From Muricea muricata (taxonomy: Eukaryota; Cnidaria; Anthozoa; Malacalcyonacea; Plexauridae): a stretch of 64,000 bases of DNA. Shown in pieces: positions 48,505 through 51,500 of this stretch; the first letter of the stretch is position 1; every line of letters begins with the position of its first letter. Location of the stretch: assembly GCA_963855995.1 (NCBI GenBank), contig OY979723.1, forward strand, positions 11,856,713 through 11,920,712, read 5' to 3'. The position numbers were made by a program, and so were the translations under genes. Under the pieces are notes generated by a model, which was given only the letters and a program-made list of their open reading frames with translations, did not search any database and was not told where the DNA came from.

Positions 48505-51500
48505 TCAGACGTCGGTGACTGTATAATCTTCAGGCAGATTCTGATAAGTTTGTTGCCATAACGATGGCGTGTACACAGACGCCGATGACGGCATTCGCTC
48601 AAGGTCGCCATGTTCTTCGTCGATGTATACCAGCTCGGTAAGCAAATCCTCGGCGATTCTGTTCAAATCCACATCCGAAACATCGAATGCCTCGGATATT
48701 TCTCGTTGCACGGCTTGAATAATGGGGTCATCAGGGCTAAGGGCGAGTGCTTGGTCCCCTTCGTTATCCTGTAAGCCAACCATCGTATCGCTCTTGCTCC
48801 GCCGTCGCTCTTGTATCGGTGAATGATTGGGCCGATGGCCGACCAGTTTGTCCTCAGGTAGACTGGCGCTGGGCTTCAGATCCGGATGCGGGCCTGGGGG
48901 CTTTTCCGGAGTCGGTTCAGCTTCGTGAACGCTCGCTTCCGAAGCAGTCCCGTCGTCAGACGACGTAGCTGCTTCATCCTCCGACGGCTCTTCCGGGGGA
49001 GGCGGTGGGATTTCTATCACAGGTTCGGGCTACAATATAAAATTGTAAGTTATCACAAAAGTACAATTTATGTACATACGCTGAAACCAACTCTTACGCA
49101 ATGGTTATACCCGTTAAAAGGTATATAAAGGATATAGTGTGGCTACCTGCTCTTTTTCCTCCACAGGAACTTTGCCAGCGACAATCTTACCATCCAAATT
49201 CTCTCCGGTACTCCGTCGTTTAAAGATGGCTGACAAACGGAAAGAACCTCCACGCTGTCGCCGTGAGGGACTATGGGAATGAAACAAAAGTGCAAGGAAT
49301 TTTTAAGTACTCCCTGTATCTTTTAGCTGATTGTGTTCACGTGATGTCCACGCATGTAGTGCATGGAACGCTGCGTGATATTCTGGTGCAAGGTGTTTAT
49401 TCCTTGTTTGATATTTGCAAGTAATCAATTCGTTTTGTTTTTAATACAATCTACCCATGCCATATACCGTCAGGGAACTATTGCATACCAAGAGGAGTAG
49501 ACACGACTTCCTCGTAGGGGGAGGATTAAGATTGGAAATTTCTCAGGGGGGGGGGTAAATCCTGATAAAGGGGGGGGCTTCTGGCTATGCTTGTACATAC
49601 CGTGTCTCGCCGCTTGCATCGCCTTCGGAAAAACGGCGGCCATTAACTGTTCTTTTCCCGACAACCGGTCCTAATCTGCTTCCACTTTCATTTTCCTAAA
49701 TAGAAGATGAAACGTCCTTTTTTTAAAGCGAAGCAGCTGCTGAAATACTGGTTTCATCAGATTTTATCAATACATGCAGAAGTTGAGAACGCGCCGTCTG
49801 AACAGTCGCAAACGCTTAAAGCTCTTTTCGACTTATCGCAGGAATCAACTCGTAATGCTCGAATATTTTTTATTCGATACAAAGCAAGCATTCGCAGTTC
49901 GCTTTTGCGACGAGAAATGAGCGTTCATTTCATAGTACTTGCTCGGTTTAAATATGCCATGTTTACCTCTTCAGTCGGTTTCTTTTCCTCAACAGACTCA
50001 GTTGCTTCGCCTGCTATTTCTTCCTCTTCATCAATCTTGCCCGACATTGCTTTGCGTATTTTTGGCGCCAGACCCTGGATGCTGCGCAGACCAGCCTGAA
50101 ATACAAATAAAGAAAGAGCTTCAGTTTGAGCTGATAATAATAATACTTGAGCCGACTCTCCTGTATTTCTGTACAGTTGCTTGTTTCAAAACATCAGGAA
50201 CTAAAACTACTGTTGATCCTGACTAGGTTTATGAAGAAATATTTCCAAGGTTAAAAACAAGCAGCTGGCAAACTTCCTTAGAATTTTTCGTTAACCCTGG
50301 TTCAAACGAGACAGGCAAGTTGCATGCAACAATTTTAGGTGATCTCGAACCGAAATGTTAGTCACTGGCCATCTGTTCGTCAGTGGAAAAAAAGGTATCA
50401 GAATATCGTCGGTGTTTGGTTGTGAAAAACAATGCTTGTCTAAAACACTACCTGTAAAGCAAACGCCTTATCTTCTTGAGTTGAATGTAAGCTCATTTTA
50501 CGTGCCCCTGGTGTCTTCTTTCTCGCTTTAAACCGTCTAAAATAATCTTGGATAAGATAGGTCGCGTAGAATTTGCCAACCGTGACACCTGCGTCGTCTG
50601 TAAGATATTGCGAATGTTGCGTGAGTTGAGCGCACTGCAAATATCGCACAAGCTCTATCAGGCTTTATCACATAAATAGGTGATATTAGTTTAGGATCTT
50701 TGCTAATAGCTCCACCTGTTCTATCAAGTATATTTAATTTAGTATATTTAATTTGTATCCACATGTACCAGTGTGATATCTGTGCCGCACTAGCTCCGCT
50801 GTATTAACCCCCTTCTCTCGTGATCATCCGAGCAGTGGCGAAGCCAGCTCGACATTTGGTCATGCAAATGCAAATTTTTCTGTGTTTTTGACCGTGTAAG
50901 GAATGAATTTCTAAAGAAATGAATAATGATAATGATTTAAATTATCATAGCGTGACCAAATTATCGGGCTGGCTTCGCTACTGCATCCGAGGCTTTAGAT
51001 TTGACTACGCCTGCGAATCGCTCAGTGTCGGTGAATATTAGACTCGACAGAGCATTAAGATGGGCGCTCCATATAATTTTTTCAAACGGCAACAACCGAC
51101 GAGGCAACAGTCACAACGTACCTTCAGCCTTCGGTACAATCTTATCGAGAAGTTCTTCGCTGGTTCGAGGCCAGATTCTCATGATAATCGCACGTAGTTG
51201 TTCATTCGCTCCGTCCAAAGTCAGTTTACCTGAAATTGTTAACGCAAAGCTATTTGAAAAATTTTAAGACCAGGACGATTGCATACTCAACTACATTTGG
51301 TCAAATACTGCCGGAGGTCAGTGGTAAAAGTAAGGAGTAGGTTCGAGATTAAGACATATTTACTCCATAAAACTCTATTTAGGCCTGGTCCGAGAAGTTC
51401 TTTCGACTCCAGGACAAACAAATGACGGTCGTGTCTTCGGAAAAAGGGTTTTACATGAAGTACATGTATTTACCTACCTTCAGGACGTTTGATATGCAAC

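Follow-up and report, generated by a model that had tools for sequence, protein, structure and literature searches.

A short copy of URB2 coding sequence in an intron of the neighbouring CaV1 gene: a probable local templated insertion in Muricea muricata

An intron of the CaV1 gene in the octocoral Muricea muricata contains a 128-base copy of coding sequence from the adjoining gene, URB2. We consider it probable that the copy arose as a single germline templated insertion, through a local DNA route primed by microhomology. Positions below are those of the window, by which we mean the whole 64,000-nucleotide stretch of DNA that was analysed, unless a position carries the prefix C8, in which case it is a contig coordinate.

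The insertion itself is a mutation of an ordinary and already known kind. What we add to the original prediction, which had pointed out the copy, is the microhomology at its joints, the evidence on copy number, and a possible relocation of the intron's branch point. The case offers a clean example from an animal genome of a local templated insertion whose donor, target and both joints are intact, and it illustrates that a slip of repair or replication can place coding sequence in a neighbour's intron, close to the acceptor. It also has a practical side: short reads derived from the copied part of URB2 can align antisense to CaV1 and pass for antisense transcription.

The copy and its donor

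The features on which the comparison rests are as follows.

42791..47404, plus strand: URB2 gene, source of the copy; a single long open frame that runs for 1537 codons from stop to stop (open reading frame and Pfam)
47161..47292, plus strand: the 132-base donor segment, which lies in frame inside the Urb2 domain (BLASTN and sequence)
49293..49420, plus strand: the copy; 128 bases, no mismatches, without the donor's TTCG (BLASTN, repeat and genome searches)

BLASTN aligns the copy with the donor segment in plus/plus orientation, with 128 of 132 positions identical, no mismatches and one 4-base gap (E 8e-62, from a comparison of 300 by 340 bases); the description of the copy as exact save for a 4-base deletion is thus borne out. 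An ungapped repeat search recovered the same pair as well, as 121 bases at 98%. When positions 49271-49440 were compared with the whole genome (453,007,491 bases in 74 contigs), exactly two places were returned, the query itself and the URB2 segment, a result that is no absolute count, given that the search passes over very frequent words and gives scores to the best candidates alone. The insert was copied from a donor that stands intact elsewhere, about 2.1 kb away and in the same orientation. By simple arithmetic, a random donor would fall this close in a 453-Mb genome with a chance of about 1e-5. An Rfam search of positions 47000-49700 gave no matches.

The identity of the donor follows from the reading frame. 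URB2 matches the Pfam family Urb2 (PF10441, E 2e-20) over residues 1337-1524 of a 1526-residue query, and the copied segment corresponds, by arithmetic, to residues 1446-1490, inside that domain. Since the donor segment is in frame, and since loss of the four bases would break that frame, we take URB2 to be the donor and assign the loss to the copy. A PDB sequence search with URB2 returned no matches. URB2 forms a single uninterrupted frame of more than 1,500 codons, and the adjoining CaV1 gene is split into exons.

The recipient intron and its surroundings comprise the following features.

49601..49695, minus strand: CaV1 exon upstream of the intron; open frame when joined
49271..49600, minus strand: CaV1 intron holding the copy; 330 bases (GT...AG limits, open frame of the joined exons)
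49147..49270, minus strand: downstream CaV1 exon; the joining test covered 49148-49270, and base 49147 was read from the sequence
49546..49577, plus strand: runs of ten and eight G (G10 and G8) in the same intron; the nearer run is about 125 bases from the copy

Read on the minus strand, the intron starts with GTATGT and ends with CCCATAG, and the exons 49695-49601 and 49270-49148, when joined, give one frame that is open throughout. The intron assumed in the original prediction is therefore confirmed by its GT...AG limits and by the joining of its exons (tested to 49148). The sequence likewise agrees with the placement of the copy 22 bases from the CaV1 acceptor, and with its orientation, antisense to CaV1 and sense to URB2. 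The copy adds about 125 bases to an intron that we infer to have been 205 bases long before the insertion. Pfam searches of six CaV1 frames found channel families in four of them, namely Ion_trans (two), the Ca-channel IQ domain, and CAC1F_C, the last barely above the cut-off; the other two, 48505-49029 and 55738-55989, had no Pfam match. The matches are in keeping with the CaV1 label, which is a reading from sequence.

The G10 and G8 runs form a possible obstacle to replication. Their proximity to the copy may, however, be due to chance: the 264-kb stretch that we surveyed around the copy contains 57 runs of at least eight G or C, and for roughly 5% of its length a run of this kind is no more than 130 bases away.

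Microhomology at the joints

The original prediction had named microhomology at both joints only as something to look for. It is present, in the form of a 6-base direct repeat that had not been described.

49291..49296, plus strand: TGCAAG, left joint; six or more shared bases had a simulated P of 0.0095
49416..49421, plus strand: TGCAAG, right joint

The sequence across the left joint is AAAAG-TGCAAG-GAATTT, and that across the right joint is ATATT-TGCAAG-TAATC. The donor starts with CAAG on the left and finishes with TGCAA on the right, and the bases outside the donor differ from those at the joints. Thus a 4-base and a 5-base match to the donor both fall within the TGCAAG found at each joint, and we read the repeat as microhomology. 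We simulated 200,000 insertions that were blind to the joints, with 132-base segments drawn from this 264-kb stretch, and 0.95% of them shared at least six bases in a row at both joints; a P of about 0.01, obtained from one case with the threshold set at the observed value, is not strong evidence alone. The 60-base flanks have no other match in the 264-kb stretch above chance length (12 and 13 bases, where the random median is 13).

Because one hexamer serves both joints, replication template switching, in which the nascent strand returns to its own template, or a filled-in staggered break fits the data better than a blunt break, which would not yield this arrangement. The suggestion of a templated insertion is supported and, with this refinement, essentially right: it agrees with the two places returned from the genome, the 2.1-kb distance, the lack, by eye, of a poly-A tail or terminal repeat, and the microhomology at the joints.

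The same hexamer could be regarded as a target-site duplication, left by LINE-like (class 1) retrotransposition, and such an event would account for a 6-base repeat at each joint. We judge this extremely improbable. Inspection by eye shows neither a poly-A tail at the right joint nor a TTTT/A site, and CAAG and TGCAA are already present at the donor's own ends; a pure target-site duplication would leave the agreement of these nine donor bases to chance. A retrocopy is rejected for the missing poly-A tail and site, again by eye. Membership of a transposon or repeat family is rejected too, by the two places returned from the genome search and by the lack, by eye, of any terminal or inverted repeat at the ends of the copy. 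The original statement that the copy bears no features of a retrocopy or transposon therefore stands.

The joints also bear on two readings of a different kind. According to the first, the pair is an artefact of assembly, which we regard as very improbable: the two copies differ by the 4-base gap, the joints share microhomology, and the site lies inside a 14.6-Mb contig. According to the second, a tandem duplication of about 2.1 kb was followed by a deletion that removed all of the second copy except its first 132 bases. Although the short distance and the common orientation are what such a duplication would produce, this history requires two events and makes the presence of TGCAAG at both joints a coincidence, and we consider it quite improbable.

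Proposed origin

We therefore return to a templated insertion from local DNA and set out how it might have proceeded. While the CaV1 intron was being replicated or repaired, a 3' end would have left its template at TGCAAG and primed on the CAAG in URB2 coding sequence, 2.1 kb off on the same strand. It would then have copied 132 bases of URB2, as far as TGCAA, and rejoined the intron at the very TGCAAG that it had left, which would place the hexamer at both joints. The four missing bases, near one joint, would have been skipped during the event or lost afterwards. Either template switching of the FoSTeS/MMBIR kind or the fill-in of a staggered break could provide such a route. We infer a one-step round trip to the original template, and a former intron whose empty site read AAAAGTGCAAGTAATC.

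The copy had been called recent and unmutated. Its 128 sites indeed contain no substitutions, but they place only a bound on its age, with a 95% upper limit of 2.3% divergence, which gives no date without a mutation rate; recency is thus weakly supported.

Other repeats in the surrounding stretch

For a base rate of similar events, we surveyed 264 kb (C8:11656713-11920712) for pairs of at least 40 bases and at least 95% identity, and sorted these by eye. The survey yielded 14 pairs, 12 of them within 20 kb. Among the local pairs, five lie in tandemly duplicated blocks, two in a 15-kb palindrome, and two (337 and 291 bases, 95-97%) are inverted pairs beside the palindrome, which we left unclassified; the remainder are a 456-base element, a pair of LTRs, and the URB2 copy. 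The URB2 copy is the sole direct, isolated pair of the 12 that neither an element nor a larger duplication explains, although a single case in a stretch picked for containing that case amounts to no rate. Exact matches of at least 22 bases within 20 kb number 277 after a low-complexity filter, unclassified and listed apart from those wholly inside the palindrome; they include other short local inverted pairs.

The palindrome itself, at C8:11753371-11783843 and outside the window, is a 15-kb inverted repeat at 98.8% with about 576 bases between its arms; it may be either a large palindrome or a fold-back of the assembly.

Two pairs were considered as further cases of templated insertion and rejected.

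6726..11248, frames on the minus strand: LTR retrotransposon; identical LTRs of about 217 bases, 5-base GTTTC duplication
C8:11827736-11828191 and C8:11807298-11807753, outside the window: 456-base pair (99.8%); ends AGCGACCTTAA / TTAAGGTCCCT, terminal inverted repeats

The first, found as a 218-base identical pair (6725, 11031), represents the LTRs of a retrotransposon, with GTTTC on their outer sides and two stop-to-stop frames between them (7014-9971 and 9972-10982). This element, which we take from its protein to be copia-type, is probably a very young insertion. The second is an element with terminal repeats, flanked by an ATT duplication and matched by an empty site in a paralogous block. 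Both elements bear the marks of transposition, in contrast to the URB2 copy, which has none.

The young LTR element is relevant to one more account of the copy, since it points to a source of reverse transcriptase. A fragment of URB2 mRNA might have been reverse transcribed and used to patch a break in the CaV1 intron, in the manner of class 2 inserts; the donor is, after all, coding sequence, and PMC5110952 describes human class 2 inserts with microhomology and no poly-A that are argued to derive from RNA. We find this account unlikely. URB2 directly adjoins the recipient gene, at a distance of 2.1 kb, whereas the donors of the experimental human inserts in that study were spread over 18 of 24 chromosomes, and it is this proximity that leads us to favour a DNA template. 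Nor is there a poly-A tail. The structure of URB2 is uninformative here: the gene is one open frame, so that it has no intron whose absence could mark RNA either way.

Branch-point candidates in the enlarged intron

The copy carries no shown function, and its effects on CaV1 or URB2 are candidates drawn from sequence. We scored branch-point candidates by a rule of our choosing, based on the branch-point consensus: a pyrimidine, T, any base and A, located 15-45 bases from the acceptor with no AG between.

49303..49307, minus strand: CTTAA, branch-point candidate; its A is 33 bases from the last intron base (consensus match only)
49424..49428, minus strand: TTGAT, best candidate of the reconstructed empty site; 29 bases from the acceptor then, 154 now (consensus match only)

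The reconstructed empty site has two candidates, TTGAT at 29 bases and TTAAA at 45 bases. If the donor segment is inserted without the 4-base gap, the rule finds none. In the present copy it finds CTTAA at 33 and TTAAA at 32, both created by the gap and the only candidates at a usable distance, with TTGAT, at 154 bases, now beyond the AG-free stretch. It is suggestive, on this pattern, that the 4-base deletion supplied replacement candidates, and branch-point use may have shifted into the copy.

The controls put this pattern in proportion. Changes that make a candidate in that stretch include 3 of 45 4-base deletions, 3 of 48 single-base deletions and 6 of 144 substitutions, and an immediate candidate was present in 9,338 of 20,000 random inserts. 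As control acceptors, we used five of 17 AG sites, dropping twelve; the five are presumably real, judging by their protein context. By the same rule, three of these five have a candidate and two have none, so that the absence of a candidate need not be fatal to an intron.

Were the intron retained, a stop would be reached within five codons. Its RNA is antisense to URB2 mRNA along 116 unbroken bases. One could thus imagine that the insertion displaced the branch point, that loss of TTCG was kept for the new TACTTAA, and that the intron RNA could also act on URB2; we hold this combined scenario to be unlikely. If it were true, URB2 coding sequence would serve as a splicing signal for its neighbour, CaV1.

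Comparison with known systems

Our literature searches returned nothing on topic, by title and among the matches listed, for templated insertion in corals, and no matching case, likewise by title and among the matches listed, for branch points combined with template switching; a search that combined dispersed duplication, microhomology and templated insertion gave no match.

Microhomology, an intact donor and a return to the template are features of the FoSTeS/MMBIR models (PMC2621351; PMC8421209). The URB2 copy is alike in its short segment, its microhomology at both joints and its intact donor, with the return to the template being our reconstruction. The screen in PMC8421209 covered inverted copies within 100 bp, whereas the URB2 donor lies 2.1 kb away in direct orientation.

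Templated sequence insertion polymorphisms of class 2 (PMC5110952) resemble the copy in size, microhomology, lack of poly-A and intact donor; the experimental human inserts are 73-414 bases long, from distant donors, and argued to be RNA-derived. They differ in that their donors are distant, where ours is the neighbour at about 2.1 kb, and the copy has the 6-base repeat at its joints. Class 2 inserts are marked by the absence of both target-site duplication and poly-A; the copy shows no poly-A by eye, and we read its joint repeat as microhomology.

Inserts made by POLQ (theta) in C. elegans (PMC5068794) are copied filler with short priming homology, as is the copy. Yet most of them are shorter than 25 bases. 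For 37-44% the template lies no farther than 20 bp from the break, a further 47-50% are so small that no origin can be assigned, and donors over 1 kb away or on another chromosome account for only 2-3%. The copy, by contrast, has 128 bases from a donor 2.1 kb away, and so lacks the template in the immediate flank that is typical of POLQ inserts, if not absolute.

Finally, the intron gains described in Daphnia (PMC3443670) have short direct repeats at their joints too, explained there by repair of staggered breaks. In Daphnia, introns were gained, whereas in CaV1 an existing intron was enlarged.
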